From an uncultured Verrucomicrobiales bacterium (lineage in GTDB: Bacteria > Verrucomicrobiota > Verrucomicrobiia > Limisphaerales > Palsa-1400), in NCBI GenBank assembly GCA_903927905.1, contig CAIYOY010000291.1:1-40934 (forward strand): DNA of 40,934 nucleotides. Direction: 5' to 3'. The notes below the pieces were generated by a model, which had not been told where the DNA came from, ran no database searches, and worked only from the letters and a program-made list of their open reading frames with translations. Shown here piece after piece: positions 8,175 through 32,750 of this stretch (position 1 is the stretch's first letter; every line of letters starts with the position of its first letter). A program made the translations under genes and the position numbers.

Positions 8175-9440
8175 TTAGGCGTAGCGTTCGACGCGGACCC
8201 TGGCGGTGATGGCGTGGGCCAGCATCCGTTCCACATTGCACTGTCGTTCGGTCACGGCGCCGACTTCACGGCTCGCGGCCGGCGTCATGCGTTGATAGGT
8301 GACGGTCTTGAGAAATTTTCCGACCCACACGCCGCCGGTATAGCGCGCCGCCCGGCTGGTGGGGAGGATGTGATTGGTGCCTATGGATTTGTCGCCGTAG
8401 GCCACGGTGGTTTCTTCGCCGATGAACAAGGAACCGTAGTTGGTCAAATGTTTGGTAAAATAATCCTGGGCTTCAACGTGCAGTTCCAGATGTTCCGGGG
8501 CGTAGTCGTCGCTCAACGCGATGGCTTCATCCGCGTTTTCTGCGACGTGAACAATGCCGTTGTCGCGCCAGGAAAGCGCAGCGATGTCGCGAGTGGGCAG
8601 CACGGCCAGTTGTTTTTCCAATTCCACGATGGTGCGGTAGGCGAAATCGTCGCTCAGGCAGATCAGATACACACCGCTGTTGGGATCGTGTTCGGCCTGA
8701 CCGAGCAGGTCGCAGGCGACGAGGGCGGGATCGGCCGAGTCATCGGCGATGATCGCGATTTCGGTCGGCCCGGCCAACAGGTCAATGCCGCAACGTCCGA
8801 AGAGCTGTCGCTTGGCTTCGGCGACGAATTTATTTCCTGCGCCGCACAAAATATCCACGGGTTTGACTCCGCCGAGGCCAAAGGCCATCAGCGCCAATGC
8901 TGGCACGCCGCCCAGAATGAAGATGCGATCTGCGCCAGCCTTTTTCATGGCGTTGATGGTCGCCGGAAAATATCCCTCCCCTTTGACCGGAGGGGTGCAG
9001 GCGATGACTTCTTTGACTCCGGCAACTTTCGCCGGAATGATGCTCATCTGCGCGGAACCAAACATGGGATAGCGCCCGCCCGGAATGTAGCTGCCGACGG
9101 AATTAACCGGGATGTGTTTGTGGCCGAGGATGACGCCAGGGCGGATTTCCGTTTCTAACGGGAGAAGAGTTTTTAATTGGGCCTGGGCGAAACGACGGAC
9201 GTTGCCCTGACAAAAATCGGTGTCATCAACCAATTGTTTGGGCAGGGTTTCGAAGATCTTGTTCACCTGACTGGCACTGAGTTCGAAATTTTCCGGGGCC
9301 CAGTCGTCGAATTTTTTGCTGTATTTGCGCACGGCGTCGAGGCCGTGTTGTTCCAGATCGAGCAGCATCTCCGAAACGAGTTGGGCGGTTTCCTGGTCGT
9401 TTTGAAACAAGCGATGATTTCCGTTTTTGATGATTTTCAT
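8175..9440 (-). CDS. Histidinol dehydrogenase paralogue (zinc-dependent alcohol oxidase in a catabolic operon)
   Basis: This 421-residue protein is a full HisD-family enzyme. Compared with E. coli HisD the key residues are kept with a constant shift of ten. The zinc ligands are Q248, H251 (GQAEHDP), D350 (YGDKSIG) and H409 (near LAHAI). The catalytic pair is E316-H317 (APEHLEL). HisD oxidises a primary alcohol to a carboxylate in two NAD-dependent steps. Here it is the last gene of a sugar-acid-type operon, with no other his genes. HisD paralogues in such settings act on other substrates, for example HpsN on sulfopropanediol. I infer a degradative role: oxidation of a terminal hydroxymethyl group. 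It starts 3 bases after the preceding gene. A housekeeping HisD should exist elsewhere. Confidence 0.88.
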   Translation of the reverse strand: MKIIKNGNHRLFQNDQETAQLVSEMLLDLEQHGLDAVRKYSKKFDDWAPENFELSASQVNKIFETLPKQLVDDTDFCQGNVRRFAQAQLKTLLPLETEIRPGVILGHKHIPVNSVGSYIPGGRYPMFGSAQMSIIPAKVAGVKEVIACTPPVKGEGYFPATINAMKKAGADRIFILGGVPALALMAFGLGGVKPVDILCGAGNKFVAEAKRQLFGRCGIDLLAGPTEIAIIADDSADPALVACDLLGQAEHDPNSGVYLICLSDDFAYRTIVELEKQLAVLPTRDIAALSWRDNGIVHVAENADEAIALSDDYAPEHLELHVEAQDYFTKHLTNYGSLFIGEETTVAYGDKSIGTNHILPTSRAARYTGGVWVGKFLKTVTYQRMTPAASREVGAVTERQCNVERMLAHAITARVRVERYA

Positions 9441-9443
9441 TTT

Positions 9444-10454
9444 TTATGCGCCGCTTAATTGGGCGGCGGTCAGTTCATTGAGCAAGGGTTCGCCCCGGGC
9501 GAAACGCTCGAGGTTGAGTGAAAATATTTCCCAAAGCCGCTGTTTGAAATTCGGACTCAAGCTGGAACCGGAGATGTGCGGGGTGAAGATGACGTTCGGA
9601 AATTTCCAGAGCGGATGGTCGGGCGGCATGGGATACTGGTAATGAGTGTCAAGCGCAGCGCCGGCGATCCATTTTTCCCGGAGGGCGGTCAGCAGGGCTT
9701 CCTGTTTGATGATCGGCCCGCGCGCGGGATTAAGCACGAACGCGTGGCGCGGCAAGGCTTTTAATTCACGCTCGCCGATCAGGCCTTCGGTGATTTTGGT
9801 CAACGGCAAGGCGAGGATGAGGAAATCCAAGTCACGTAAAAAATCAAGTTCTTCGCCGGAGCGAAAAACGCGGTCGGGCAAGATGCCTTCTGGATCACCG
9901 GTGCCGGGGACGGTGTAGATATTGCGGATCGGCTCGACGCCGTTCCGGGCCAAGACGTGAACCTTCAATCCCATTTGCTTGGCCAATCGCGCCGTCTCGC
10001 GTCCGATGCCGCCGTAACCCCAGAGACCAACGGTAGCGCCACGCAGTTCGCGTTGGAAAATGGCAGAGCGATCCCACACGGCTGCCTCTTGATTGCGGAT
10101 GAGTTGGCGCATGTCGCGCACCAGATTCACCATCATCGCGATATTCCACTCGGCAATGGGGACATCGAAACAGCCACGGGCATTCGTGGCGCGAACGCCG
10201 CGAGCCGGGAGATCAAGGCCGAACAGTTGCGTGTAACCGACCGAGGCGATCTGCATCCATTGCAATTTTTGCATGACCGCATGGTTCGTGGGAGGAACGG
10301 TGCAGAAATAAACATCTGCATCCTTGATGCGCGCCGGTTCAATCTCGCGCGCCTTTTCTTCGGGCGGCTCGATCAATTCGATCTGGCAACCGGCAACTTT
10401 TTTGAGCGCGGCCAGAGCGGGTTCATGCACGGCTTGGTCTATGACGATTTTCAC
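9444..10454 (-). CDS. D-2-hydroxyacid dehydrogenase family protein lacking the usual catalytic Glu
   Basis: This 336-residue protein has the two-domain fold of NAD(P)-dependent 2-hydroxyacid dehydrogenases. The Rossmann motif is GLWGYGGIGRETARL (about 143-157). The substrate-binding Arg is R245 in LNPARGP, and the catalytic His is H293 in FTPHISG. The Glu that pairs with this His normally stands in 'DVF..EP'. Here the same place reads ALDTHYQYP, so Tyr274 replaces it. The enzyme may have changed activity or use another acid. It lies between the dehydratase and the HisD paralogue in the operon, 1 base from the former. A natural role would be interconversion of a 2-keto acid and a 2-hydroxy acid in the pathway. 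Confidence 0.85.
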   Translation of the reverse strand: MKIVIDQAVHEPALAALKKVAGCQIELIEPPEEKAREIEPARIKDADVYFCTVPPTNHAVMQKLQWMQIASVGYTQLFGLDLPARGVRATNARGCFDVPIAEWNIAMMVNLVRDMRQLIRNQEAAVWDRSAIFQRELRGATVGLWGYGGIGRETARLAKQMGLKVHVLARNGVEPIRNIYTVPGTGDPEGILPDRVFRSGEELDFLRDLDFLILALPLTKITEGLIGERELKALPRHAFVLNPARGPIIKQEALLTALREKWIAGAALDTHYQYPMPPDHPLWKFPNVIFTPHISGSSLSPNFKQRLWEIFSLNLERFARGEPLLNELTAAQLSGA

Positions 10455-10455
10455 T

Positions 10456-11667
10456 TTAGTCCTTCAATATTTTTCCAGGCACGCTGTTGAATTCGCCGCT
10501 GCCGGGTTGGAACGGATAACGCCGTTTGGTTTCGTCGGTCAGAACGACGCCGAGGCCCGGACGATCGGGCGGCAAAACGTATCCGTCTTTGATCACCAAC
10601 CCACCCTCGATCACCTCCGAGTGCAAACCGGCGTAATCGGGTGGGATTTCCAGGATGCAGGTATTGGCGGCGGCGAAACCGGCGTGAACATTTTGCATCA
10701 ACGATCCGCCTGCGCCCCACGCATGAGTGGCAATTTTCTTTCCGCTCTTTTCCAGCATCTGCGCGACGGTTAAAAATTCGCCCAGGCCCCCGGTGAACGA
10801 TGCATCGGGTTGGCCGATATCGAAGCTATCCTGTTCAGTGAAGACACGCCATTCGTACGCCGCAGTCAAACATTCGCCTCCCGCGATGGGCGTGGACGTT
10901 GCTTTGCACAATTCGGCGTAACCCCACGGATCGGTATAGTGCAGCGGCTCTTCGAGGAAGAACGGGTTGTATGGCTCCAACGCGCGGGCGACCGCCGTGG
11001 CGATTTCCACCGTCCAGGTTGTGACGTGGTTGTTGCCCATGTGCGCATCCATCGCCAGCCACGCATCGGAACCGGCGTGAGCGCGCATGAAGGAAAATTT
11101 GTCGGCTTCAAAATCGGCGGCTTCCTTCGCTTCTTTGGGCATGTACCACCCCTCGGGCGAAAAGCTGCCCGCGCCCACTTTCAATCCGTGAAAGCCGAGA
11201 GAAAAATAATGATCCATTTTTTTGGCCAGACGGTCCTTGGGATAATTGCTTGGTCCGCCTGTGGCGTAACAAGGCAATCTCTTAAATTTGCTGCCGCCCA
11301 GAAGCGCATGCACCGGTTGATCGAGTTGTTTGCCTTTCAAATCCCAGAGGGCAGCTTCAATCCCATTCAAAACGATCGCGCCCAATCCGACCCGGCCCCA
11401 GAAATTACCGCAGTGATACATCCGCCGCCAAAGTTCGGGGATGTCATCCACCGTCTGGCCGAGGAGAATGGGTTTAAAAAATTCCACGATGGCTGGCACC
11501 GCTTCCGGGCAAAAATAACCAGCATAAGTTTCTCCAAGGCCGATTTGATCGCCATCGGTATGGATTTCGATAAACGCCGCACTGCGCCGCTTGCGGGCTT
11601 CGCGCAGGAACGGGTCGTTGGTGCAGGGGCCAGTCAACAGGACGGTGCGAACATCAGTGATTTTCAT
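10456..11667 (-). CDS. Mandelate racemase/muconate lactonizing enzyme family (acid-sugar dehydratase-like)
   Basis: This 403-residue enolase-superfamily protein has an N-terminal capping domain (1-125) and a TIM barrel. The three metal ligands are D207 (AMDAHMG), E239 or E240 (FLEEP) and E265 (AGGE). A mandelate-racemase-type His-Asp dyad is formed by H315 (THAWGAGG) and D288 (GQPDAS). K163 (HGLKVGAG) is a possible second base. The N-terminal 20s loop and the AYATGGPS segment resemble acid-sugar dehydratases. Such enzymes abstract the proton next to a carboxylate and lose water to give a 2-keto-3-deoxy acid. Two aldolase candidates in the locus could cleave that product. It overlaps the sialidase-like gene by 4 bases. 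The substrate is not predictable by eye. Confidence 0.9.
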   Translation of the reverse strand: MKITDVRTVLLTGPCTNDPFLREARKRRSAAFIEIHTDGDQIGLGETYAGYFCPEAVPAIVEFFKPILLGQTVDDIPELWRRMYHCGNFWGRVGLGAIVLNGIEAALWDLKGKQLDQPVHALLGGSKFKRLPCYATGGPSNYPKDRLAKKMDHYFSLGFHGLKVGAGSFSPEGWYMPKEAKEAADFEADKFSFMRAHAGSDAWLAMDAHMGNNHVTTWTVEIATAVARALEPYNPFFLEEPLHYTDPWGYAELCKATSTPIAGGECLTAAYEWRVFTEQDSFDIGQPDASFTGGLGEFLTVAQMLEKSGKKIATHAWGAGGSLMQNVHAGFAAANTCILEIPPDYAGLHSEVIEGGLVIKDGYVLPPDRPGLGVVLTDETKRRYPFQPGSGEFNSVPGKILKD

Positions 11668-12992
11668 TTGACCGTTATTTCCAGGAAGCGGCCGTAGATG
11701 TCGCGGTTCATTCCTTTGCTCCAGCCGCCGAGATCGTAGGTCACATATATTTTATTGTCGGCCGGAGTTTCGCTTACTGCCGTGTAATGCGTGGTCAAAA
11801 CGCCCGACGTCAGGCGAACCACATTCGGCCACGTCTTGCCGTGATCCTGGCTGATCGCGAGATAATTTCCGTTCCACGGATGTTCGGGATGCGCCCAGCA
11901 GGCTTTCTGCGGGATGCGCACGCCAAAGGTCGCCACCAATAGTCCGCTGCGCAATTCTATCAAATCAGGATCCACCACCGCGCCGCGCAGATCGTCGGGA
12001 TTATTTTCATCGAGCAATTTTCCGTGAGCGCCTTTGAAGCTGCGGAAATGATCCACCCAAAGTTCGGTCCGGTAAACATCCAATCCGGCGAAGACCAGCG
12101 GTTGATGAGCGCTCCAGGTCGCGCCGTCGTCGTCAGAAAATGATTCGCGCAATTCCCGGCCCGTACGCATCAGGCAAAGCAACCGTCCGGGATTCGGCCC
12201 CTGGCTGATCCGCGTGACGACCGGTTCATCAAAGCCTTCTGTGCCGATCGTTGGGTCCACGGCGACGGTGGAAATCAGTTTCCAATGCTGCCCACGATCA
12301 GTGGAACGCACCAGCATCGTCCGCGACTTCATCATCAGCGGCATGTAGGTGGACGGGGTGTGATCGCCCTTGATCTGTCCGTAAAATGTTGTCAACAGAT
12401 CTCCGTTCGGCAGTTCGAGAATGCGGCGATGCAGACGTTGCGCGTCGTGGGGATGGCCGCCGTCATCCTTCGAAGCGTAAAAATCCACGTTTGGCAGATC
12501 GAAGGCGACATCTTGTGGCCCATCCAAAGTGCGCCAGTCATTGGTCGAAGTGTAAAGCTGTCCGATGCCTTCGTCTGGTTTGGCGCCCGGCGTGATGTAA
12601 GTGTCCAGCGCCAGGATGGTGCCGTCGTGCAACTGGATGGCGCCGCCTTCCATGTTCAATCCGTTTTCGTCGGGTTTGCGCGGGAAGACCGTCCACGTCT
12701 TGCCATCGTCGCGAGAAATCCTTGTTTCCACCGCGCTGGGATAGTGCATCCGTTTTGTCGGCAGCGATTTTTCCGGCACTTGCGCCTGAACGATGATTGC
12801 GCCTGACTTGGTGTAAAGCATGGAAGGCTGCAAGCCGCGCGGCAAGACCAGCGTTTCTTCACCAAAATCCAGACGTAATTTTCCATCCGCCTCCACCATC
12901 TCAGGAATATTTTGGGCGGCGAAGGCCGTTAAATTCAGCGCGAGCCAGGCCGCAGTCAGCAGGGTGCTTTTTTTATCGGTAAGAAGTTTCAT
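11664..12992 (-). CDS. Secreted BNR/Asp-box propeller protein (sialidase family)
   Basis: This 442-residue protein begins with a signal peptide (hydrophobic stretch about 10-25, ending FAAQNIP). It contains four Asp boxes of the S-x-D-x-G-x-T/H-W type: SRDDGKTW, STDRGQHW, SDDDGATW and SQDHGKTW. It therefore forms a six-bladed sialidase-type propeller. The classical FRIP arginine motif is not evident, so sialidase activity is not assured. Members of this family in Verrucomicrobiota and Planctomycetota are commonly labelled exo-alpha-sialidase but may bind or cleave other acidic sugars. It overlaps the genes on both sides by 4 bases, so it is in the operon. It would act outside the cytoplasm on the polymer or conjugate that the operon handles. 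Confidence 0.85.
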   Translation of the reverse strand: MKLLTDKKSTLLTAAWLALNLTAFAAQNIPEMVEADGKLRLDFGEETLVLPRGLQPSMLYTKSGAIIVQAQVPEKSLPTKRMHYPSAVETRISRDDGKTWTVFPRKPDENGLNMEGGAIQLHDGTILALDTYITPGAKPDEGIGQLYTSTNDWRTLDGPQDVAFDLPNVDFYASKDDGGHPHDAQRLHRRILELPNGDLLTTFYGQIKGDHTPSTYMPLMMKSRTMLVRSTDRGQHWKLISTVAVDPTIGTEGFDEPVVTRISQGPNPGRLLCLMRTGRELRESFSDDDGATWSAHQPLVFAGLDVYRTELWVDHFRSFKGAHGKLLDENNPDDLRGAVVDPDLIELRSGLLVATFGVRIPQKACWAHPEHPWNGNYLAISQDHGKTWPNVVRLTSGVLTTHYTAVSETPADNKIYVTYDLGGWSKGMNRDIYGRFLEITVK

Positions 12993-13915
12993 ATTTTATT
13001 GTTCCAACGTGGATACTTGTCGCGGATCATCGCGGTAATTCTCTGAAAGGTTGCTTCACTCAAACCGGCATAAGGCGGAAGTAATCGCAGTGGAAATTCC
13101 GGGTCATGGATCTTGCAGAAAACCTTGTCATAAGCTCCGTCCATGTGCGCTTCACTGCGGCCAAGGGCCACGAGGTCGGTGACCATTCCCAGCAACTCCT
13201 GCTGCCCACGAAGCAATGTTTCCTTGTCTCCCCCCCGCCCCGCTGCGAAATAACGTTTCGCTTCGGCAAAATGAACCGAGGCCATTGAAATCAAAAATCC
13301 ACATTCGCCAAGCTCACTCCCGTAAGCAAAACCTGTTTCCGTAAAAAAATGCTGGAGCTGCGGCGCTTTCGTTATCAGTCCGCGAATGCGTTCCTGATCG
13401 TCCGTGCTGTTTTTGGCTGCAACCAGATTGGGATGCCTCTCGGCCAGGATGGCATATTCCTCGGGCGACACGAGCCGTTTGGTTCGCATCAGATTGTAGT
13501 GCAGAAACGAACAGTCAGGAAATCGCCCGCATGTTTCCTGAAAAAATATTTTTAATTCGCCGTCCGTCAACGCGCCCCAACTCGGCAGGGAAATTTGAAA
13601 ATGGCATATACCTATTTCCCGGGCGCGTTCCATTCGTTCAATCATCGTCGGCAGAGACAGGCTGATGAGCCCCACCATGCCACGGACATCCGGCTGGTTG
13701 GTCTCTTCACGGAACACACGGACGATTTGATCGAATTGCTTGTCGCTGACCGCATACCCCTCCCCCGCTGTGCCAAAGATATAAACATCGCGCGTCAGAT
13801 TCGCCAACAAGTTGCGGATCTCCCGGCGAAATATGGACTCAGCCAACGTGCCGTCTTCGTTCCACGGAACGCAGCAGGAAGCCAGAATGCAACTCGGATA
13901 TCGCTTCGCGTTCAT
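12989..13915 (-). CDS. DapA/NanA family class I lyase (aldolase or dehydratase)
   Basis: This 308-residue TIM-barrel protein keeps the family landmarks. The Schiff-base lysine is K168 (VAAKNSTDD), the catalytic tyrosine is Y140 (FLHYNLMRTK), and the carboxylate loop is GTAGEG at 48-53, in place of the usual GTTGE. The family includes dihydrodipicolinate synthase, N-acetylneuraminate lyase, 2-keto-3-deoxygluconate aldolase and ketodeoxyglucarate dehydratase. In this context (dehydratase, dehydrogenases, MFS transporter) a 2-keto-3-deoxy acid aldolase or dehydratase is more likely than lysine synthesis. The pairing with a sialidase-like neighbour also allows a NanA-like role, but no other nan genes are seen. 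It overlaps both neighbours by 4 bases. Confidence 0.87.
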   Translation of the reverse strand: MNAKRYPSCILASCCVPWNEDGTLAESIFRREIRNLLANLTRDVYIFGTAGEGYAVSDKQFDQIVRVFREETNQPDVRGMVGLISLSLPTMIERMERAREIGICHFQISLPSWGALTDGELKIFFQETCGRFPDCSFLHYNLMRTKRLVSPEEYAILAERHPNLVAAKNSTDDQERIRGLITKAPQLQHFFTETGFAYGSELGECGFLISMASVHFAEAKRYFAAGRGGDKETLLRGQQELLGMVTDLVALGRSEAHMDGAYDKVFCKIHDPEFPLRLLPPYAGLSEATFQRITAMIRDKYPRWNNKI

Positions 13916-15024
13916 GATTTGAGTGATGGCACAATCGCGCTCTTGGTGACCTGTCCCGATGCCGTCATCCCCAATGCTTCATTGGTTTGTTCCAGCGAAA
14001 AACGGTGGGACACCATTTCGGCGAACGGAAATTCCTTGCGCGTTGTGCGCAGAAATTCGAGGGCCGTCTTCATATGGCGCGGCTCGCTCGACCAGGAGCC
14101 GAACACGCTCAATTGTTTTCGTGTCACCACGTGCGGATTCCAAGCCACGGTACCGGCATCGCAATAGTGGCCCAGTACCAGATATTTTCCGCCGTCGCGG
14201 CACATCTCCATCCCTTCCACCACCGCTGCCGGCAGCCCGACACATTCCAGCACGACATCCGCGCCGTAGCCTCCGGTCAGTTCGCGGACGGCAGCGATGC
14301 GCTCCGCCGGAGTCTTCACTTGTTCCAAATCAATGACGTGATCGGCCCCAAAACGTTTCGCCATTTCCAACCGATGTTTCGGCGCACCAATCATGATCAC
14401 TCGACCCGCCCCCGCAGATTTTGCCACAGCGAGAGCAGCGATGCCGACCGGCCCGGCGCCTTGCACCACCACGGTGTCGTTCCGGGAAATACCGGTGCGT
14501 TCCACTCCGTGAATGGCGGTGTTCAAAGCACAACCCGCACCGATGACTGATTCCGTCGGCAAATCATCCGGCAATTTAAAAATATTCGAGCGCGGTTTCA
14601 GGTAATGGAATTCCGCATAACCACCAAGGAAATAAGGTTCGCTCGCGCAGGATTGACTGATGCCATAGGCCCGGCGATTGACACAACGCGTCGGAATTTT
14701 TTTCTCGGCACAATAATAGCACGTGCCGCAGGTCAATCCCGGAGTCCAAGTGACGCGATCGCCCACATACAACGGCTGGCCGGACCAATCTTTTTCCAGC
14801 CCAGCGCCCAGTGCATGGATTATCCCAACGGTTTCATGGCCGAGAATCACTGGCAGCGTGATGGGCAATTCACCTTTCCACAAATGCACATCGGTGCCGC
14901 AAATGCCGGCCATTTCCGTGCGCACCAACGCAGCGCCCGGCTCCGGTTGCAATGGCACGGAAAAATTCCGCAGCGCCAGCGGGGCTTTGAATTGTTCGAG
15001 AACAGAGGCTTTGGCGGTGATCAT
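13912..15024 (-). CDS. Zinc-dependent alcohol/polyol dehydrogenase (MDR family)
   Basis: I chose the ATG at 15024 (370 residues, MITAKASVLEQF). It overlaps the stop of the upstream gene as TGATG and matches the family N-terminus. The longer frame to 15267 lies inside that gene. Catalytic zinc ligands are C42 (GICGTDVH) and H63-E64 (GHETVG). Structural zinc cysteines are C99, C102, C105 and C114. The cofactor site is GAGPVGIAALAVAKSAGAGRV. This pattern fits medium-chain dehydrogenases of the sorbitol/threonine dehydrogenase type, which oxidise a secondary alcohol of a polyol or sugar acid with NAD. It lies inside the 12-gene operon. Confidence 0.9.
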   Translation of the reverse strand: MITAKASVLEQFKAPLALRNFSVPLQPEPGAALVRTEMAGICGTDVHLWKGELPITLPVILGHETVGIIHALGAGLEKDWSGQPLYVGDRVTWTPGLTCGTCYYCAEKKIPTRCVNRRAYGISQSCASEPYFLGGYAEFHYLKPRSNIFKLPDDLPTESVIGAGCALNTAIHGVERTGISRNDTVVVQGAGPVGIAALAVAKSAGAGRVIMIGAPKHRLEMAKRFGADHVIDLEQVKTPAERIAAVRELTGGYGADVVLECVGLPAAVVEGMEMCRDGGKYLVLGHYCDAGTVAWNPHVVTRKQLSVFGSWSSEPRHMKTALEFLRTTRKEFPFAEMVSHRFSLEQTNEALGMTASGQVTKSAIVPSLKS

Positions 15025-19180: not shown

Positions 19181-19186
19181 GTTTCT

Positions 19187-22641: not shown

Positions 22642-22642
22642 A

Positions 22643-23755: not shown

Positions 23756-23779
23756 GTTTTGCTCTTCTAATGTCATTAG

Positions 23780-23878: not shown

Positions 23879-23901
23879 TTCAAAATTCGTTGCTACAGTC
23901 A

Positions 23902-25086: not shown

Positions 25087-25089
25087 ACC

Positions 25090-26559
25090 ATGCGTATCAC
25101 GGCTAAATTTTTAAGTCTTTTGGCATTGCTGGTCACTTCGCGATTAGTGGCTGGCGAGCCGATAAATCTTGGCCAGCGCCGCGAATTGTTCGTGGACAGT
25201 TTTCTGATCGCCACCAAAACCAATGTGCAATTCACCTTGCACGAACCGCGCGATGAAGGTTCGGTCATGCCCTTCGACGGGCCGTGGGAAGGACCGTTCT
25301 GTGCCTATGTCACCATCCTGCATTCCGGCGATCAGTTCCGCGCATATTATCGAGGCAAGGCCGATGGCAGTCGCGATGGCTTCAATGAATGCACCTGCGT
25401 GGCGGAATCGCGCGATGGTATTAAATGGACGAAGCCGAAGCTTGGCTTGGTCGAAATGAATGGCAGCAAGGAGAACAATATCATACTCGCGGAAAATACT
25501 TTCTCGCACAATTTCAGCCCGTTCATTGATGGTAATCCCGCCGCGAAACTGGAGCAAAAATACAAAGCCATCGCCGGTTATGAGAATAGCGGGTTGAAGG
25601 CTTTTTGTTCCGGCGATGGTCAGCATTGGCAAACAATCCAGTACAAACCAGTACTGACGACAAACGATGTACCGGGGTTTCAATTCATGTTTGATTCGCA
25701 AAACGTCTCGTGCTGGTCGGAGGCGGAAAACCGTTATGTGCTTTTTTTCCGGGTTTATACCAATCACATCCGCCGGATTGCGCGGGTGGACAGCAAGGAT
25801 TATTTGCATTGGGAAAATTTGCAACTGATGGAATATCGCGGGGCGGACGGACAGCCGGCCCCGGTGGAAAATTTATACACCAGCCAGACGCATCCTTATT
25901 TCCGCGCGCCACAGATTTACGTGGCGGTGGCGGCGCGTTTCATGCCGGGGCGGCAGGTATTGACGGCGGAAGAGGCCAAGGCCATCGGAGTTCACCCCAA
26001 GTACTTTAAAGATATTTCCGATGCGATTTTCATGACCTCACGCGGCGGGAATATTTATGACCGCACTTACATGGGGGCGTTTATCCGTCCGGGCATCGGC
26101 GCGGAAAATTGGGTATCGCGCACCACTTATCCCGCGCTCAACGTGGTGCAGACCGGGACGAATGAAATGTCGGTGTATGTGAATCAAAATTACGCGCAGC
26201 CGACCGCGCACCTGCGCCGTTACAGTTTGCGGCTGGATGGATTTTCGTCGTTGCGCGCGCCGTATGAAGGCGGGGAATTCACCACCAAACCAGTGACCTT
26301 TTCCGGCAATCAATTGCTGTTAAATTTTTCCACGTCGGCGGCGGGCGGAATCAAGATCGCCATCCTAGATAAGACGGGGAAAGCAATTCCCGGTTATACG
26401 TTTGCCGACAACATCGAAACCATCGGCAATGAAATTGAACGCCCTGCCCGTTGGAAGAAGGGGACCGATCTCAGCCAGCTCGTCGGACAAACGGTGCAAC
26501 TGCAATTCAAAATGAAGGATGCGGACTTGTACGCCATTCAGTTCGCGGAAAAGAAATAG
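25090..26559 (+). CDS. Secreted beta-propeller protein, glycoside hydrolase family 43/32-like
   Basis: This 489-residue protein opens with a signal peptide (ITAKFLSLLALLVTSRLVAGEP). The next 350 residues show propeller-like repeats of the GH32/43 kind. These include RELFVDSFLIA, FRAYYRGKADGSRDG, CVAESRDGIKWTKPKLGLV and YKAIAGYENSGLKAFCSGDGQHW. The last 130 residues form a beta-sandwich (LLLNFSTSAAGGIKIAILD). Acidic residues that could serve as catalysts are present, but I cannot assign them by eye. Proteins of this kind are common in verrucomicrobial degradation loci, generally with unknown activity. The start is 3 bases after the preceding stop, so it is in the operon. It would act outside the cytoplasm, like the sialidase-like protein on the other arm. 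Confidence 0.8.
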   Translation: MRITAKFLSLLALLVTSRLVAGEPINLGQRRELFVDSFLIATKTNVQFTLHEPRDEGSVMPFDGPWEGPFCAYVTILHSGDQFRAYYRGKADGSRDGFNECTCVAESRDGIKWTKPKLGLVEMNGSKENNIILAENTFSHNFSPFIDGNPAAKLEQKYKAIAGYENSGLKAFCSGDGQHWQTIQYKPVLTTNDVPGFQFMFDSQNVSCWSEAENRYVLFFRVYTNHIRRIARVDSKDYLHWENLQLMEYRGADGQPAPVENLYTSQTHPYFRAPQIYVAVAARFMPGRQVLTAEEAKAIGVHPKYFKDISDAIFMTSRGGNIYDRTYMGAFIRPGIGAENWVSRTTYPALNVVQTGTNEMSVYVNQNYAQPTAHLRRYSLRLDGFSSLRAPYEGGEFTTKPVTFSGNQLLLNFSTSAAGGIKIAILDKTGKAIPGYTFADNIETIGNEIERPARWKKGTDLSQLVGQTVQLQFKMKDADLYAIQFAEKK

Positions 26560-26560
26560 C

Positions 26561-27676
26561 ATGGCCAATCTCGAACATTCTTTTTCTTCCGTTGATCAAT
26601 TGCCCACCCCGGCATTGGTGATAGACGGCGTGATCGCGCGCAGGAATATCGAGCGACTGTCCCAATACGCGGCCAAAAATAATCTCGGAGTCCGTCCCCA
26701 CACCAAAACGCACAAAAACCGGTTCATCGCCGGCTTGCAGATCGCAGCGGGTGCCATTGGATTGACCGTGGCCAAAGTCGGTGAAGCCGAGCTGTTGCAG
26801 ACGGCGGCGAAAGATTTGTTGATGGCTTATCCGGCGGTGGATGCTGCGCGTTGCGGGCGGTTGGCAGAACTGGCCCGCACTCACACGATACGCGTGGTGG
26901 TGGACAGTCCGGTTGGCATCCAATCACTGTCAACCGCAGCCAACCAAGCCGGCACGACCATCGGGTTGCTGGTGGAACTGGATGTGGGCATGGGCCGCAC
27001 TGGAGCGGCCACGCCCCAGGAAGCTTTGGAATTAGCGCAATTGATTTCCCAAACGCGTGGCGTTCGGCTGGATGGGATTCTTTGTTATCCGGGACAGATC
27101 TGGAGCGCAGTGGATCAGCAGTCCCCTGCCCTTGCGGCGGTATCCGCAAAACTTCAGGACACGATTGATCTCTGGCGGAGCAAGGGATTGGAGGCAAAAA
27201 TCGTTTCCGGCGGCTCGACGCCCACGATGTTTCAATCCCATTTGGTGAAGCAATACACCGAAATCCGTCCGGGCACTTATGTCTTCAACGACATGAACAC
27301 CTTTCGCGGCGGTTTTTGCGCGTTAGAAGATTGCGCCGCGCGATTGATCGCCACTGTGGTCAGCACGGCGGTGAAGGATCAGGTCGTCATTGATGGCGGC
27401 ACGAAAACGTTCACCAGCGACCTGTGCATCCCGGCGCGGGACAGCGGCCACGGTTACATCGCAGAATATCCCGAAGCGCGTCTGATGCGCTTGAGCGAGG
27501 AACACGGACAGGTGGATGTTTCCCAATGTGCGAAGCGGCCAAAAATCGGCGAGCGCGTCTCGATCATTCCCAATCATATCTGTCCCTGTGTGAATCTGCA
27601 GGACGCGATCTGGTGGAAGGAAGCAGACGGTTCGCTCCAAAAAATCAACGTTGATGCGAGAGGAAAATTATCATGA
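26561..27676 (+). CDS. DSD1-family PLP enzyme (D-threonine aldolase / D-hydroxyaspartate dehydratase-like)
   Basis: I chose the ATG at 26561 (371 residues, MANLEHSFSSVDQLPTPALV), 1 base after the previous stop. The protein is a fold-type III PLP enzyme with an alanine-racemase-like barrel. The PLP lysine is K49 in RPHTKTHK, a hallmark of this group. LVELDVGMGRTG and VSGGSTPTM contact the cofactor. A metal site at the C-terminus is H339 and C341 in NHICPCVNL, as in D-threonine aldolase and D-serine/D-3-hydroxyaspartate dehydratase. The likely substrate is a D-3-hydroxy amino acid, giving either an aldehyde plus glycine or a keto acid plus ammonia. With the RidA protein and aminotransferase nearby it points to nitrogen in the substrate. 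Confidence 0.88.
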   Translation: MANLEHSFSSVDQLPTPALVIDGVIARRNIERLSQYAAKNNLGVRPHTKTHKNRFIAGLQIAAGAIGLTVAKVGEAELLQTAAKDLLMAYPAVDAARCGRLAELARTHTIRVVVDSPVGIQSLSTAANQAGTTIGLLVELDVGMGRTGAATPQEALELAQLISQTRGVRLDGILCYPGQIWSAVDQQSPALAAVSAKLQDTIDLWRSKGLEAKIVSGGSTPTMFQSHLVKQYTEIRPGTYVFNDMNTFRGGFCALEDCAARLIATVVSTAVKDQVVIDGGTKTFTSDLCIPARDSGHGYIAEYPEARLMRLSEEHGQVDVSQCAKRPKIGERVSIIPNHICPCVNLQDAIWWKEADGSLQKINVDARGKLS

Positions 27677-28521
27677 TCATTGATGTTCACAGTCACACTT
27701 GGAATTTTCCGGCCGATTTCAACGAAGATTTTATCCGCCAGGCCAAACGCGCCCGCGCCGGCATGGAAGTGGACCTCATGGTGCGTTATGAAGATTACCG
27801 TGCTACTTGCCCGCCGGAAACGAAAACCATTGTTTTCGGCGGAAAAGCCAAATTGAGCGGCCAATGGGTGGATGATAAATATGTGGCGGATTACGTCGGC
27901 AAACATCCCGACACCTTGATCGGTTTCCTGTGTCTTGATCCGACGCAACCAGGGTGGGAACGGGAAATGGAATTTGGCCATCAGGAACTTGGTTTGCGCG
28001 GGATAAAATTACTGTCGATGTACGCCGGTTTTCGCCCCGATGAAGCGCGACTGGATCCGATGTGGCGCTATGCCACGAAACACAAATTGCCTGTGTTACT
28101 CCACACTGGAACAACTTTTATCGCGCAAGCGCCGCTCGAATGCACCCTGCCCCGTCATCTTGATGTGGTCGCGACTCGTTTTCCCGAGGTGAAGATCATC
28201 ATGGCGCACCTCGGTCATCCCTATGAAGGCGAGTGCATCGTCACCGCACGCAAACATCCGAACGTCTTCGCCGACATCAGCGCGTTGCACTATCGTCCCT
28301 TCCAGCTTTATCACAGTCTGATGCTGGTCCAGGAATATGGCGTCTGGCACAAAATCCTTTTCGGCACGGATTATCCTTTCACCACGGTCAATGCAACGAT
28401 CGACGGATTGCGCAAGTTGAACAACATGACCGAAGGAACGGGGTTGCCTAAATTAAATCCGAAAGCGATCGAAGATATGATTTATCGCGACACTTTACCG
28501 CTTCTCGGCCTCGACCAATGA
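27673..28521 (+). CDS. Amidohydrolase-2 family metal-dependent hydrolase (COG2159 type)
   Basis: This 282-residue TIM-barrel protein starts with the metal site H6-x-H8 (IDVHSHTWNF). Further ligands are in LLHTGTTF, IIMAHLGHPYEGE and the conserved Asp of FGTDYPFT near residue 237. The fold is that of the amidohydrolase-2 group, which contains gamma-resorcylate and aminocarboxymuconate decarboxylases as well as lactonases. No signal peptide is present. In this locus a lactonase or decarboxylase is a fair guess. The gene overlaps the DSD1-like gene by 4 bases. Its stop codon overlaps an ATG (28518-28521) that begins a relic copy of the next gene's start. Confidence 0.87.
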   Translation: MIIDVHSHTWNFPADFNEDFIRQAKRARAGMEVDLMVRYEDYRATCPPETKTIVFGGKAKLSGQWVDDKYVADYVGKHPDTLIGFLCLDPTQPGWEREMEFGHQELGLRGIKLLSMYAGFRPDEARLDPMWRYATKHKLPVLLHTGTTFIAQAPLECTLPRHLDVVATRFPEVKIIMAHLGHPYEGECIVTARKHPNVFADISALHYRPFQLYHSLMLVQEYGVWHKILFGTDYPFTTVNATIDGLRKLNNMTEGTGLPKLNPKAIEDMIYRDTLPLLGLDQ

Positions 28522-28541
28522 ACAATCCCGCAAATAACGAA
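28518..28541 (+). repeat. Relic copy of the start of the downstream dehydrogenase gene
   Basis: The 24 bases 28518-28541 differ from the true gene start at 28662-28685 in only three places and encode MNNPANNE against MSNPANNE. The relic ATG overlaps the amidohydrolase stop as ATGA, the usual junction in this operon. The frame soon leaves the gene sequence. It marks a duplication around the repeat pair 28552-28657. Confidence 0.75.
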
Positions 28542-28551
28542 TTGCCGCACC

Positions 28552-28657
28552 CGGAGCGCGAGTCTGTGACTCGCAGCAATATGGCCATTCCAATGTGTCG
28601 TATAATTCAAAGTCGCGTGATTAATCCACCCGCTGCGAGTCATAGACTCGCGCTCCG
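28552..28657. repeat. REPIN-like element: two inverted 26-base palindromic units
   Basis: Unit one (28552-28577) starts CGGAGCGCG and contains the palindrome GCGAGTC-TGT-GACTCGC (28558-28574). Unit two (28632-28657) is its reverse complement with one change. They stand 54 bases apart. The pair can fold into one long hairpin, or two short ones. The outer word CGGAGCGCG recurs in the element at 40839, so the two belong to one family. No protein is encoded. Such paired REP units (REPINs) are moved by RAYT transposases in other bacteria. Confidence 0.75.
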
Positions 28658-28661
28658 ATAA

Positions 28662-29627
28662 ATGAGCAACCCCGCAAACAACGAACGTATCGCGGTCATC
28701 GGTCTCGGTCTGCTCGGCCGGGGCATTGCCGGTTGTTTTTTGGCGCACGGCTTTTCTGTCGTGGCGGTGGATCGCAATGCGGAACAACAGACGGAAGCGC
28801 GCAAGCAACTGGCCATCATGATGGACGAACTGGTGGAACGCGCCGGTTTTCCTGCTGCGTTGCGCGAGGAGTGGACCAAGCGTTACACCGGCGTCGCGGA
28901 TTTTGCCGCCGTGAAGGGCTGCGCGTTCGTCGTGGAAAGCGTGACGGAGGATATCGCGACCAAGGAAGCGGTTTTTGATGAACTGGAATCATTGCTTGGG
29001 CCGGAGATCGTGATCGCCACCAACACATCAGCCATTCCCATCAGTCAATTGCAATCGCGCCGCAAGGTACCATCGCGTTTTGTCGGGATGCACTGGGCCG
29101 AGCCGGCTCATGCCACGCGCTTCATGGAATTGATCCGAGGAGAAAAGACTTCTGATGCCACCCTGCAAACGGCCTCGGCCATGGCGCGTCGCCTGGGCAA
29201 AGAACCGTGTATTTGTCAGCAGGACATCCCCGGCTTCATCGTCAACCGCATCGGCTATGCGATGTATCGCGAAGCCTTGAATGTGCTGCAATCCGGCATC
29301 GCCGATGCCGCCACCATTGACACGGCCATACGCAACGCGCTCGGCCTTTGGTCCAGCATGTGCGGGCCGTTCCGCTGGGTGGACATCACCGGCGGGCCGG
29401 AGTTGTACGCGCGGGCCATGCAGCATGTTCTTCCCACCTTGAACAATTCCCCGGAAATTCCGGCCGTGTTGAAAAAACTGGCGGCCGAAAATGCGCGCGG
29501 CATCGTCAACGGGCGCGGTTTTTACCAATACACGCCGGAAGAGGCGAAGCATTGGGAAGAACTTTATCGGCAACACGCCTGGCGCGTCACCGCCTTGCAA
29601 AACCAATATTTTCCGATCAAAAAATAA
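28662..29627 (+). CDS. 3-hydroxyacyl-CoA dehydrogenase-like NAD-dependent dehydrogenase
   Basis: This 321-residue protein has the Rossmann motif IAVIGLGLLGRGIAG (10-24) and the fold of 3-hydroxyacyl-CoA dehydrogenases. The catalytic set is complete: S123 (NTSAIPI), H144 (GMHWAEPAH), E156 (ELIRG) and N195 (DIPGFIVNR), with the same spacing as in the classical enzyme. There is no enoyl-CoA hydratase or thiolase nearby. Short members of this family (L-gulonate 3-dehydrogenase, lambda-crystallin type) oxidise hydroxy acids without CoA, which suits this locus better. The start is preceded by a repeat element and a relic copy of its own first 24 bases, so the normal translational coupling to the amidohydrolase gene has been lost. 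No strong ribosome binding site is seen. Confidence 0.88.
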   Translation: MSNPANNERIAVIGLGLLGRGIAGCFLAHGFSVVAVDRNAEQQTEARKQLAIMMDELVERAGFPAALREEWTKRYTGVADFAAVKGCAFVVESVTEDIATKEAVFDELESLLGPEIVIATNTSAIPISQLQSRRKVPSRFVGMHWAEPAHATRFMELIRGEKTSDATLQTASAMARRLGKEPCICQQDIPGFIVNRIGYAMYREALNVLQSGIADAATIDTAIRNALGLWSSMCGPFRWVDITGGPELYARAMQHVLPTLNNSPEIPAVLKKLAAENARGIVNGRGFYQYTPEEAKHWEELYRQHAWRVTALQNQYFPIKK

Positions 29628-29629
29628 TT

Positions 29630-30091
29630 ATGAGTGAACGTGTCAAAAAACTGGAAGCCCTCGGCTATCCCATCCACAAAACCACGCCGGAAGGCAAACT
29701 GGTTGATCCCCTGGCCATCGTCGGCAACGTGCTTTATGCCTCGGGCCAGGTGTCCTTCGACGGCGATGTCCTGATCAGCAAAGGCAAAGTTCCATCACAG
29801 ATAAACATGGAACAGGCGACTAAAGCCGCCGCCTTGTGCGCCGCGAATGTCCTTCGCTCCGTCCATGCCCATCACGGTTTGGATAAAATCGAGCGCCTCC
29901 TTCGCATCACCGGCTATGTCAATTCCGACGCCGATTTCACTGATTGCCATCTCGTCATCAATGGCGCGTCTCAATTGGTGCGTGATGTATTCGGTGAACA
30001 AGGCCGCCACGCCCGCACGGCGCTTTCCATGGCGCAACTGCCGTTGGGCGCGAGTGTCGAAGTCGAAATGATCTTTCAAATCAAAACTTAA
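29630..30091 (+). CDS. RidA (YjgF/YER057c/UK114) family protein
   Basis: This 153-residue protein is of the RidA type, slightly longer than the usual 125-130. Characteristic segments are VGNVLYASGQVSFDGDVLISKGKV, QATKAAALCAANVLRSVHAHHGLDKIERLLRITGYVNSDADF and HARTALSMAQLPLGASVEVEMIF. The arginine of the last segment (about R130) should bind the substrate carboxylate. RidA proteins hydrolyse reactive 2-aminoacrylate or imine intermediates released by PLP enzymes. That would fit with the DSD1-like dehydratase or the aminotransferase of this locus. It starts 2 bases after the dehydrogenase stop. Confidence 0.92.
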   Translation: MSERVKKLEALGYPIHKTTPEGKLVDPLAIVGNVLYASGQVSFDGDVLISKGKVPSQINMEQATKAAALCAANVLRSVHAHHGLDKIERLLRITGYVNSDADFTDCHLVINGASQLVRDVFGEQGRHARTALSMAQLPLGASVEVEMIFQIKT

Positions 30092-30150
30092 CCGGTCAAA
30101 AAATAGCCAATAGCCAATAGCAGATAAAAACTGGAAATTAGGACAAAAAT

Positions 30151-30993
30151 ATGAGATTCAGCCGAATTAAAGCGAAGTTGCGCAAGAACGAACCTGCGCT
30201 CATCACCACCCTCCATTACACCGACGGCACGCTCTATGAGATGACGAGTCTTATGGGCTTCGACGGTATCTGGATGGATTTGGAGCATCATCATTACAGC
30301 GTAGAAACCGCTGCCAACCTCATGCGCGCCGCGCGCGTCGGCGCGTCCGACATCGTCGCGCGTCCCGCCAAAGGCGAATACATGCGCATGGCCCGGCTCC
30401 TCGAAGCCGGCGCGCAGGGCATCATGTATCCGCGTTGCGAAAGCGCCGCCGAAGCCGCCGATGTTGTCAAGTGGATGAAATTCGCGCCGATGGGCGAACG
30501 CGGCCTCGACGCCGCCAACGCCGATGCGCCGTATTGCTGCATGCCGGTCAAACCGTATCTCAAGATTGCCAATGAAGAAACGCTGGTCATCATCCAGATC
30601 GAATCTCCCCGCGCCGTGGAAAATGTCGAAGCCATCGCCAAAGTTCCCGGCGTGGATATCCTGATGATCGGACCCGGCGATCTCAGCGTGCTGGCGGGGA
30701 TGCCCTTTGATTTCGAAAATCCTTACATGGTGAAAGCCCGGGAACGCGTGGCCGCCGCCGCCAAAGCCGCCGGCATCCATTGGGGCACGGTCAGCGGCAC
30801 GCCCGAGCATACCAAAAAACTTCTTGATATGGGGGCGCGTTTTATTTGTCACGGCGCCGACATCCTTATGGTCAAACAGGGCTTGGAACAGATCCAAAAA
30901 AATTACGCTCCCCTCGGCTTCACCTTCGACAATCGCATCGCCACCATGACCGCCGATCTCGAAAAAGCCGAAAGCTATTACGCCAAAAAATAA
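30151..30993 (+). CDS. HpcH/HpaI family class II aldolase
   Basis: This 280-residue protein has the HpaI aldolase patterns: FDGIWMDLEHHHYS (E45-H46), IVARPAKGEYMRMARLLEAGAQGIMYPRCESAAEA and VIIQIESPRAVENVEAIAKVPGVDILMIGPGDLSVLAG. The IQIES glutamate and the GPGDL aspartate bind the divalent metal. The family cleaves 2-keto-4-hydroxy acids such as 2-keto-3-deoxy sugar acids to pyruvate and an aldehyde. This would be the step after the dehydratase on the opposite arm. An AGGA ribosome binding site stands 7 bases before the ATG. The 59-base gap before it holds only a short tandem AGCCAAT repeat. Confidence 0.9.
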   Translation: MRFSRIKAKLRKNEPALITTLHYTDGTLYEMTSLMGFDGIWMDLEHHHYSVETAANLMRAARVGASDIVARPAKGEYMRMARLLEAGAQGIMYPRCESAAEAADVVKWMKFAPMGERGLDAANADAPYCCMPVKPYLKIANEETLVIIQIESPRAVENVEAIAKVPGVDILMIGPGDLSVLAGMPFDFENPYMVKARERVAAAAKAAGIHWGTVSGTPEHTKKLLDMGARFICHGADILMVKQGLEQIQKNYAPLGFTFDNRIATMTADLEKAESYYAKK

Positions 30994-30999
30994 CCTCTC

Positions 31000-32007
31000 A
31001 TGGCGAAACGCAAATCCATCCTTATCGTCGGTGTCGGCTCCATTGGCGAACGGCACCTGCGCTGTTTCCAGGCGACCGGCCGCGTGGATGTGTCGCTATG
31101 CGAGGTGAATCCGACGCTGCGAAAATCCGTCGCCGAAAAATATAAGGTGGAAAATGTTTTCGACGATCTGAACCTCGCGCTGGAAAAGCAACCGGACGCC
31201 GCCGTCATCTGCACCCCGGCCAATGTGCATATTCCCATCGCCCTCGCGGCGGCGAAAAAGGGGGTTCATCTTTTGATCGAGAAACCGTTGAGCACCACGC
31301 TGGATGGCCTGGAGGAGTTGCAAGCGGAGATCCGCCAGCGCAAATTGGTGGCGGGCGTGGCTTACGTTTTTCGCGCCCACCCAACGCTGACGGCCATGCG
31401 GGCGGCGGTGCGTTCGGGGCGATTTGGCGAACCGGTGCAAGTGGCGGCAATGCTGGGGCAAAATTTTCCCTTTTACCGCCCCACTTACCAGCAAACTTAT
31501 TACCGGAGTCACGACACGGGTGGCGGCGCGGTGCAGGATGCGCTCACGCATGTTGTCAATTACACCGAATGGATCGTGGGGCCGGTTGACCGGCTGGTGG
31601 CCGATGCCGCGCATCAGGTGCTTCCGGGGGTGGAAGTGGAAGACACGGTCCACCTGATCACGCGTCATGGGCCGGTGCTTGGCTCTTTTTCCCTGAACCA
31701 GCATCAAGCTCCGAATGAACATTCCATCATGATTGTTTGCCAGAATGGCACGGCCCGTTTTGAGATGCACAACAACCGCTGGCGCTGGCAAACCGACCCG
31801 GGCGACCTCTGGCACAATGAAACCACGACCCAACTGGAGCGTGACAGTCTGTTTATTTTACAGGCGGAATCCTTTTTGGAGGCGTTGGATGGAATCCACC
31901 CGCCGCTTTGCCCTCTGGAAGACGGCATCCAAACCTTGCGCGTCAACCTCGCCATTCTGCGCTCGATAAAAGAGCGTCAGTGGCAAACACTGGGTGCGAC
32001 CACATGA
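31000..32007 (+). CDS. Cytoplasmic Gfo/Idh/MocA family oxidoreductase
   Basis: This 335-residue protein has an N-terminal NAD(P)-binding domain with a clear motif (ILIVGVGSIGERHLRCF) and the family signature LLIEKPLSTTLDG. The C-terminal domain contains GGGAVQDALTHVVNYTEWIVG with the conserved His. Unlike the family member at 4252-5553 it has no leader peptide and should work in the cytoplasm. It begins 6 bases after the HpaI aldolase gene and overlaps the SDR gene by 4. It would oxidise or reduce a cyclic sugar, inositol or sugar-acid intermediate. The exact substrate is unknown. Confidence 0.9.
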   Translation: MAKRKSILIVGVGSIGERHLRCFQATGRVDVSLCEVNPTLRKSVAEKYKVENVFDDLNLALEKQPDAAVICTPANVHIPIALAAAKKGVHLLIEKPLSTTLDGLEELQAEIRQRKLVAGVAYVFRAHPTLTAMRAAVRSGRFGEPVQVAAMLGQNFPFYRPTYQQTYYRSHDTGGGAVQDALTHVVNYTEWIVGPVDRLVADAAHQVLPGVEVEDTVHLITRHGPVLGSFSLNQHQAPNEHSIMIVCQNGTARFEMHNNRWRWQTDPGDLWHNETTTQLERDSLFILQAESFLEALDGIHPPLCPLEDGIQTLRVNLAILRSIKERQWQTLGATT

Positions 32008-32750
32008 AGAACGAGCCAACCATTCAACAACTGTTCGATCTCTCCGGCAAAGTCGCGCTCATCACCGGTGCCAGCGGCCATCTCGGTTCCGCCATGGCCC
32101 GGGCCTTGACCGAAGCCTCCGCGCGAGTCGTCGCCACCAGCCACAAACCCGGAGCCGAAGTCGTGATCGATCACATGGACGAAGCCTCCATCAACCGGGG
32201 CTTTGATGAAGCAGTCAAGATCGCGGGGAAGGTTGATATCCTGATTTGCAATGGACACGAACCGCTGGGAGCCGATTGGCGGACCGCCACCGGCGAACAA
32301 TTTACACGTCAACTACAAAACGCGACCGGCTATTTCCTTCTCGCCCGAAAAATGCGCGATCACGCGGTGGAGCGCAAGGCCCCGGCCAGCATCATCCTGA
32401 TCGGTTCCATGTATGGCGTGGTCGGCTCTTACCCCGAGGTTTACGAAGGGATCAGCACGGCCAGTCCTGTGGCCTATCAGACGTTGAAAGGCGGAGTGGT
32501 TCAGATGGCGCGTCATCTGGCTGTCTATTGGGCCAAAGACGGTGTTCGGGTCAACTGCCTCAGTCCCGGTCCGTTCCCATCGTCCTCCGCTCCAGCCGAA
32601 TTGGTGGAACGACTAAAAGCGCGTTCCCCCATGGCCCGCATCGGCCAACCGCACGAACTCAAAGGCGCATTGATCTTCCTCGCCTCCGACGCCAGCAGTT
32701 ACGTCACCGGTCAAAATCTCCTGGTGGATGGTGGTTGGACGGCGTGGTGA
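32004..32750 (+). CDS. Short-chain dehydrogenase/reductase (SDR)
   Basis: I chose the ATG at 32004 (248 residues, MKNEPTIQQLFDLSG) because it overlaps the preceding stop as ATGA. The longer frame begins inside the Gfo/Idh gene. The cofactor motif is TGASGHLGSAMA (21-32). The NNAG motif is changed to ILICNGHEP. The catalytic Ser is S135 (LIGSMYG), and the YxxxK pair is Y158/K162 (AYQTLKGG). The C-terminal part has VNCLSPGPFPSS and YVTGQNLLVDGGWTAW, typical of gluconate 5-dehydrogenase-like SDRs. It is the last gene of the plus-strand operon and probably reduces or oxidises a keto-sugar acid. Confidence 0.92.
   Translation: MKNEPTIQQLFDLSGKVALITGASGHLGSAMARALTEASARVVATSHKPGAEVVIDHMDEASINRGFDEAVKIAGKVDILICNGHEPLGADWRTATGEQFTRQLQNATGYFLLARKMRDHAVERKAPASIILIGSMYGVVGSYPEVYEGISTASPVAYQTLKGGVVQMARHLAVYWAKDGVRVNCLSPGPFPSSSAPAELVERLKARSPMARIGQPHELKGALIFLASDASSYVTGQNLLVDGGWTAW

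Follow-up and report, generated by a model that had tools for sequence, protein, structure and literature searches.

A divergent gene cluster of an uncultured Verrucomicrobiales bacterium as a candidate catabolic unit for an acidic, possibly amine-bearing sugar

Introduction

What compound is broken down by a gene cluster in which an acid-sugar dehydratase and two unrelated pyruvate aldolases stand together with a zinc-type pyridoxal phosphate (PLP) enzyme, a RidA protein and exported carbohydrate-active candidates? Such a cluster occupies positions 8175 to 32750 of the stretch analysed here (the window), the 40,934-nucleotide contig CAIYOY010000291.1 (C291) from the draft genome (4.74 Mb, with a completeness of 81%) of an uncultured Verrucomicrobiales bacterium. 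We give about an even chance to the answer that the locus is a single regulated unit for breaking down a sugar or glycan that is acidic and probably both amine-bearing and acylated.

Results

Scans for open reading frames and protein families gave 12 genes on the minus strand (8175-23776) and 9 on the plus strand (23872-32750), transcribed divergently from a single short control region (23.77-23.87 kb), as an initial annotation of this DNA had proposed (genes g01 to g21, Table 1). The tight packing that it described is also there: 16 of the 19 same-strand junctions fall between an overlap of 4 bases and a gap of 6, the lengths being 3, 1, -4, -4, -4, -1, -16, 6, 6, -4 and 1 bases along the minus arm and 3, 1, -4, 140, 2, 59, 6 and -4 along the plus arm (exceptions -16, 59 and 140). 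Most of the gene families were present as first named, apart from a 'histidinol dehydrogenase' that is not HisD, and the exported HEAT-repeat gene g11 was absent from that list.

The gene order recurs in related genomes. The comparison covered 320 genomes of this taxonomic order, that of the window included; one of them, G133, belongs to another family and carries on its contig C262 thirteen genes in the order and orientation of the window at 68-84% identity: class III aminotransferase (AT3), major facilitator superfamily (MFS) transporter, HEAT and GntR genes, and, divergent from these, DUF455, exported (g14-like), DSD1, amidohydrolase, 3HCDH, RidA, HpcH, GFO and SDR genes. At least 120 bases at the right end of C262 are identical to an end of contig C100, on which a probable sodium:solute symporter, another SDR-like protein, a mandelate racemase (MR) enzyme, a GFO protein and a g07 ortholog follow the SDR gene in convergent orientation. 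G005, from the family of the window's organism, has the locus on broken contigs: M19-HisD-g07-alcohol dehydrogenase-DHDPS followed by BNR-esterase-MR-2-hydroxyacid dehydrogenase (minus-arm pieces on C400 and C478), exported-DSD1-amidohydrolase-3HCDH, and the GntR//DUF455 divergence, whose two flanks lie on C298 and C283. G208 keeps the GntR, HEAT, MFS and AT3 genes with a divergent DUF455 gene. A gene block that recurs in related genera in this way is a real inherited unit, and the synteny with G133 and G005, together with the shared control-region repeats, gives good support to a single divergent catabolic locus.

Individual members are spread more or less widely. Relatives of g05 occur in 9 of the 320 genomes, of g09 in 6, of g16 in 27 (22 at 67% identity or more) and of g19 in 41 at the threshold used (four besides the window at 50% or more), and close relatives of g01 in two besides the window. 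Searching the contigs of GTDB with g05 returned 26 loci from Verrucomicrobiota, Chloroflexi, Planctomycetota and Virgibacillus. In distant clusters of Verrucomicrobiota and Phycisphaerales (L041-L044, L058, L067, L069, L071, L075) the DHDPS gene is joined to GFO, HpcH and/or SDR genes, forming sister modules. One cluster of Virgibacillus subterraneus (L050) holds DHDPS and AT3 relatives from the minus arm together with HpcH, SDR, DSD1 and GFO-like relatives from the plus arm. Plasmid searches gave no match with g05 and distant homologs only with g09 and g16.

The two arms meet at a control region with conserved signals. The regulator g12 combines a GntR helix-turn-helix with a LacI-type sensor domain, which corrects its earlier description, and is 75-80% identical in G133, G005 and G208; its ATG at 23776 is kept in three of the four control regions aligned. 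The regulator-proximal repeat is found at the same place, with changes, in all four genera, and a half-site TGGAACA occupies the position of the perfect palindrome TGTTCCATATTGAATGGAACA in G133 and G208. No second copy of TGTTCCATATTGAATGGAACA at 0-2 mismatches was found in the 81% complete assembly, so that no wider regulon is seen. From these GGAAC sites we infer that g12 represses both arms.

The sugar-acid character of the substrate, part of the earlier proposal, is supported by the dehydratase, the two aldolases and the transporter. The dehydratase g03 has the three metal ligands, Asp-His dyad and Lys of the MR subgroup, which are kept in its orthologs. The two aldolases are indeed unrelated, with intact pyruvate-aldolase sites: in g05, of class I, Tyr140 and Lys168 are present in the window and in every homolog covering those positions, and in g19, of class II, the active site is complete in the window, with L096 the only one of the listed relatives to deviate. 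The transporter g10 is nearest to the D-galactonate type and its ortholog in L070 (60%) lies beside orthologs of g05, g02 and g03. Among the dehydrogenases, g02 has orthologs at 82-83% in L060 and L062 and at 59% in L070, and orthologs of g06 (80-83%) adjoin those of g05 and g07. Relatives of g20 (44-47%) stand beside g05 relatives in L041-L044, and those of g21 (55-64%) beside relatives of g16 and g20 in L080, L081, L140 and L141.

A further dehydrogenase, g01, deserves separate treatment. It is named HisD by NCBIfam, yet it scores 396 bits to HpsN (8v35) against 236 to HisD (6an0). Its metal and catalytic residues are intact (Q248, H251, E316, H317, D350, K351, H409), with the Zn ligands, catalytic Glu/His and Lys of HpsN (K351 corresponds to Lys353). 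Histidinol dehydrogenase was rejected because the motif is GRYPM and not of the GSAPL type, no his genes lie beside it, a separate true HisD is encoded in the same genome and the tree places g01 and its plasmid homologs with HpsN (support 100/99), apart from HisD. HpsN reads the sulfonate through His126 in a GRY[A/S]H signature (PMC11382572). That signature is replaced by GRYPM in the window, G005 and G103, the sulfonate-reading His becoming Met in g01 and its orthologs. The plasmid homologs, from Geobacillus, Metabacillus, Deinococcus, Mesorhizobium and others, have the motif G[R/K][Y/F]P[M/L/I], and some adjoin sugar ATP-binding cassette or tripartite ATP-independent periplasmic transporters, LacI regulators, SDRs, HpcH or RraA proteins, or 3HCDH. 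The HpsN sequences with GRY[A/S]H (L165, L166, L167) form one lineage inside this wider, 'hisD'-annotated group (L091, L092, L093, L096, L156-L158, L169, L170). By sequence, g01 is neither HisD nor, by its motif, a dehydrogenase of 2,3-dihydroxypropane-1-sulfonate (DHPS), and its predicted reaction is a four-electron oxidation of a CH2OH group next to OH or NH2 to COOH.

An amino or N-acyl group in the substrate, also proposed at first, is plausible from g15 with RidA, the HemL-like aminotransferase g09 (orthologs 81% identical in G133 and G208) and the M19 peptidase g08, whose place is taken by an M24 peptidase in a related module. The metal site is His-x-Cys in zinc D-serine dehydratase and His-x-Asp in D-threonine aldolase (PMC4401734). 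In g15 it reads H339-I-C341, in the window and in orthologs, and the DSD1 protein of L050 also has HxC; assignment to the D-threonine aldolase type was rejected, as Cys stands in the place of Asp. Its score to BhcC is only 177 bits (cut-off 690). Given the HxC site and a RidA protein with its conserved Arg in the same operon, enamine-forming dehydration is the natural reading, and the company of RidA and a sugar-acid aldolase makes a substrate larger than serine probable.

Three exported candidates complete the set. Of the 'three large exported' proteins first described, all three (g04, g07, g14) start with signal-peptide-like stretches, as judged by eye, and only g07 is very large, the others having 442 and 489 aa. 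The SGNH/GDSL catalytic blocks of g07 are all present (GDS 839, GTND 910, DGVH 1003). Its barrel was modelled with a predicted local distance difference test score (pLDDT) of 76 and a predicted template modelling (TM) score (pTM) of 0.85, the nearest folds in the PDB including AGE epimerases and glycoside hydrolase (GH) families GH127 and GH76, at query-normalised TM scores of about 0.3-0.46 that indicate the general alpha6 fold and no family. Relatives of this barrel, mostly large proteins, were seen in 29 of the 320 genomes (L145-L155 among them). The propeller g04 was rejected as a GH33 sialidase, with Asp boxes and no [FYL]RIP motif, and the invariant Asp and Glu residues of g14 suggest a glycosidase-like enzyme. 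Close relatives have an extra acetyl-xylan-esterase-family gene within the cluster. The proposed acylation of a polymer depends on this gene and on the SGNH domain, and taken together with the exported set they favour an acylated glycan or glycoside.

Table 1. Genes and sequence elements of the divergent locus
Feature	Coordinates	Strand	Assignment	Details
g01	8175..9440	minus	HisD/HpsN-superfamily Zn-dependent dehydrogenase	signature GRYPM
g02	9444..10454	minus	D-2-hydroxyacid dehydrogenase, hydroxypyruvate/glyoxylate reductase-like	Pfam 2-Hacid_dh_C
g03	10456..11667	minus	MR-subgroup acid-sugar dehydratase	full active site K163, D207, E239, E265, D288, H315
g04	11664..12992	minus	exported BNR/Asp-box beta-propeller, glycosidase-like	Pfam BNR_2; four Asp boxes
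g05	12989..13915	minus	DHDPS-family class I aldolase/lyase	Y140, Schiff-base K168
g06	13912..15024	minus	Zn alcohol/polyol dehydrogenase	translation from ~15024, MITAKAS...
g07	15024..18110	minus	exported 1028-aa enzyme: (alpha/alpha)6-barrel, malectin-like domain, C-terminal SGNH/GDSL esterase	Pfam GDSL and malectin
g08	18095..19180	minus	M19 metallo-dipeptidase/amidase	Pfam Peptidase_M19; best solved relatives 2rag, 3neh
g09	19187..20518	minus	HemL-like class III aminotransferase (AT3)	PLP Lys K274
g10	20525..21757	minus	MFS transporter, anion:cation symporter type	best NCBIfam TIGR00893 (D-galactonate transporter), below cut-off
g11	21754..22641	minus	exported HEAT-repeat protein
g12	22643..23776	minus	regulator, GntR helix-turn-helix and LacI-type sensor domain	AraR-like architecture; Pfam GntR and Peripla_BP_3
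Regulator-proximal repeat	23782..23798		GGAAC-N5-GGAACAT	just upstream of g12 start; alignment of four control regions
Palindrome	23857..23877		perfect 21-bp palindrome TGTTCCATATTGAATGGAACA	candidate operator of g12
g13	23872..25086	plus	DUF455 ferritin-like protein	Pfam DUF455; start codon at or after 23872
g14	25090..26559	plus	exported protein, no Pfam family	invariant D17, D128, D183, E340 of aligned stretch
g15	26561..27676	plus	DSD1/D-threonine-aldolase-fold PLP enzyme	H339-x-C341
g16	27673..28521	plus	amidohydrolase_2, COG2159-like hydrolase, lactonase or decarboxylase	intact metal site H6, H8, H144, H179, D233
Inserted repeat element	28522..28661		REPIN-like, g16-g17 gap	two inverted GGAGCGCGAGTC-NNN-GACTCGC copies ~80 bases apart
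g17	28662..29627	plus	3HCDH-family dehydrogenase	best solved relative 4om8, small-molecule non-CoA member
g18	29630..30091	plus	RidA-family enamine/imine deaminase	conserved Arg R129
g19	30151..30993	plus	HpcH/HpaI class II pyruvate aldolase, GarL/HpaI-like	H46, R71, Q149, E151, D177
g20	31000..32007	plus	GFO/IDH/MocA oxidoreductase
g21	32004..32750	plus	SDR dehydrogenase, gluconate 5-dehydrogenase-like

Two conserved proteins stand apart from the enzymes above. The HEAT-repeat protein g11 is 64-69% identical in G133, G005 and G208. In g13 the full di-iron ligand set of two Glu-x-x-His motifs and two Glu is present and invariant (E241, E273, H276, E320, E353 and H356 in the 404-aa reading), and its ferritin-like model is of low confidence (pLDDT 55.7), with no match to solved folds at E<=0.001.

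The boundaries of the locus are sound: a tRNA-Val gene (8002-8076) marks one end, and at the other a gap of 155 bases, itself containing a palindrome, separates g21 from an aconitase/LeuC-like gene. A genomic island at tRNA-Val was rejected, no exact 14-base repeat of the tRNA being found elsewhere in the window. The palindrome of the gap, CAGTAAAGTGTTACATATGTTACACTTTACTG (32790-32822), is near-perfect and lies upstream of the aconitase/LeuC-like gene (32906-34276), which is not directly followed by a LeuD-like gene. Farther on (34279-39400) come genes for an O-antigen-ligase/TPR protein, a FecR-domain protein and a CHASE2-guanylate cyclase, unrelated by annotation, and the region beyond tRNA-Val (4252-7344) encodes a further GFO oxidoreductase and a 3-keto-disaccharide hydrolase. 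Within the locus, the repeat element between g16 and g17 is outside the pathway: its pattern has 16 matches in the same genome, with 0 for the reversed control pattern, and the repeat-bearing 140-base gap is not present at the g16-g17 junction of G133.

Discussion

We infer the substrate, the order of steps, the amino branch and the export of enzymes from sequence, and the pathway that they suggest would run as follows. First, g12 would hold both arms off at GGAAC-containing sites until a sugar-type ligand arrives. Second, the BNR propeller, the alpha6-barrel and SGNH esterase and the exported g14, with activities predicted from their families, would deacylate and trim a polymer or glycoside, whose product would, third, be imported by the anion:cation transporter g10. 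Fourth, the M19 enzyme may open an amide and the amidohydrolase may open a lactone or decarboxylate. Fifth, g01 would turn a terminal CH2OH next to OH or NH2 into COOH, while the alcohol dehydrogenase, GFO, SDR and 3HCDH proteins may adjust carbinols. Sixth, 2-keto-3-deoxy acids could be reached by two routes: a neutral sugar acid would be dehydrated by g03, and an alpha-amino-beta-hydroxy acid would lose water on the zinc DSD1 enzyme to give an enamine that RidA would convert to keto acid and ammonia, a second amine being moved by g09. Seventh, the class I and class II aldolases would yield pyruvate and an aldehyde, which the 2-hydroxyacid dehydrogenase may help to recycle. Among the enzymes of the last three steps, the HpsN-like g01, the dehydratase g03, the aldolases g05 and g19, the aminotransferase g09 and RidA have intact catalytic residues, as does the amidohydrolase of the fourth step.

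Several observations weigh against this single-pathway explanation. It gives no role to the di-iron protein g13 or the HEAT protein g11. Where HpcH and SDR proteins are linked to DHDPS in distant genomes, they share only about 30-41% identity with those of the window, so the distant clusters are sister modules and not orthologs. G133 has no g05 ortholog at the threshold used and a different MR enzyme (29% identity), which makes the sugar-acid branch of the minus arm exchangeable.

The main rival is that two or more separate pathways, acting on parts of one complex polymer, share a regulator, with a sugar-acid module (MR, DHDPS, 2-hydroxyacid dehydrogenase, alcohol dehydrogenase, MFS) and an amide/amino module (amidohydrolase, 3HCDH, GFO, SDR, HpcH, DSD1, RidA, aminotransferase). 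We regard it as possible, with the chances against it. The modules can indeed be seen apart: L070 has MFS-DHDPS-2-hydroxyacid dehydrogenase-MR without plus-arm genes in the stretch covered, the plus-arm core occurs without g05 in L079-L081, and the plus arm of G133 is accompanied by another MR enzyme. However, both flank one control region in the window and apparently, on its broken contigs, in G005, and the Virgibacillus cluster combines relatives from both arms.

Catabolism of a sialic-acid-like (nonulosonic) acid, with a BNR sialidase, an SGNH O-acetylesterase and a DHDPS-family lyase, would account for the BNR and SGNH proteins, and the nearest solved relatives of g05 are mostly N-acetylneuraminate lyases. 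This explanation is nevertheless unlikely, since g05 scores 22 bits to NanA against a curated cut-off of 382, g04 lacks the FRIP motif, no NanE/NanK-type gene is found among the annotated genes of the locus, and the MR dehydratase, HpcH and HpsN-like enzymes are left unexplained. Less probable still is catabolism of a sulfonate (DHPS or a sulfosugar), despite the closeness of g01 to HpsN and its retained lysine, as Met takes the place of the sulfonate-reading His126 in g01 and its orthologs and the locus is without the sulfolyase or ComDE-type genes of the HpsN loci of Leisingera and a relative. GFO (as LigC) and HpcH families are also found in pathways for aromatic ring-cleavage products, and the amidohydrolase g16 weakly matches 5-carboxyvanillate decarboxylase, but such a pathway is equally hard to credit: the annotated genes show no ring-cleavage dioxygenase, and the exported glycan-type enzymes, the acid-sugar dehydratase and the galactonate-type transporter fit it poorly.

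Returning to one regulated unit, we propose more tentatively a specific amino-sugar-acid pathway under one GntR/LacI-type switch, in which the DSD1-type enzyme and RidA would produce a 2-keto-3-deoxy acid from an alpha-amino-beta-hydroxy sugar acid and the HpsN-like enzyme would be the acid maker, and with it that the G[R/K][Y/F]P[M/L/I] HpsN-like group, often named 'hisD', may serve sugar or polyol catabolism in several phyla. If this were true, a catabolic operon that pairs a dehydratase with RidA would let little-studied bacteria use nitrogen-bearing acidic sugars. The name histidinol dehydrogenase is in any case wrong for several proteins that carry it, which by motif are not sulfonate enzymes either, and their substrate becomes a testable question.

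The initial annotation knew of no described pathway with this exact set, and in the literature searched, most subscription papers being outside its reach, we found none. The individual components nevertheless have recognizable counterparts. HpsN (PMC11382572) and g01 share the fold, Zn and catalytic residues, the Lys at 351 and a supported clade apart from HisD, and differ in the signature (GRYPM versus GRY[A/S]H, without the sulfonate-reading His) and in the lack of sulfolyase genes near g01. With zinc D-serine dehydratase and D-threonine aldolase, g15 shares the fold-type III PLP architecture, and with the former its metal site; unlike D-serine dehydratase, it sits with RidA and a sugar-acid aldolase, and it is remote from BhcC by score. 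The Virgibacillus subterraneus cluster likewise brings together a HemL-like aminotransferase, SDRs, a GFO-like protein, HpcH, an HxC-bearing DSD1 and DHDPS, but it adds MlrC, a NagA-like deacetylase, an aldo-keto reductase, a gluconolactonase and an AspA-type acylase, and the stretch seen is without exported enzymes, MR or HpsN-like genes. The closest likeness in chemistry is to the oxidative non-phosphorylative sugar-acid pathways (De Ley-Doudoroff/Dahms type, with GarL/HpaI aldolases), in which dehydrogenases, an enolase-superfamily acid-sugar dehydratase and pyruvate aldolases also lead to pyruvate and an aldehyde. The locus differs from this scheme in bringing together, within a single divergent unit, two aldolases of unrelated families, a candidate zinc PLP dehydratase accompanied by RidA, an aminotransferase, an M19 peptidase, an HpsN-like dehydrogenase and exported enzymes. 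The chemistry thus belongs to known oxidative sugar-acid pathways, and its combination with the candidate zinc PLP dehydratase, RidA, the aminotransferase and the HpsN-like dehydrogenase appears to be new within the literature searched.

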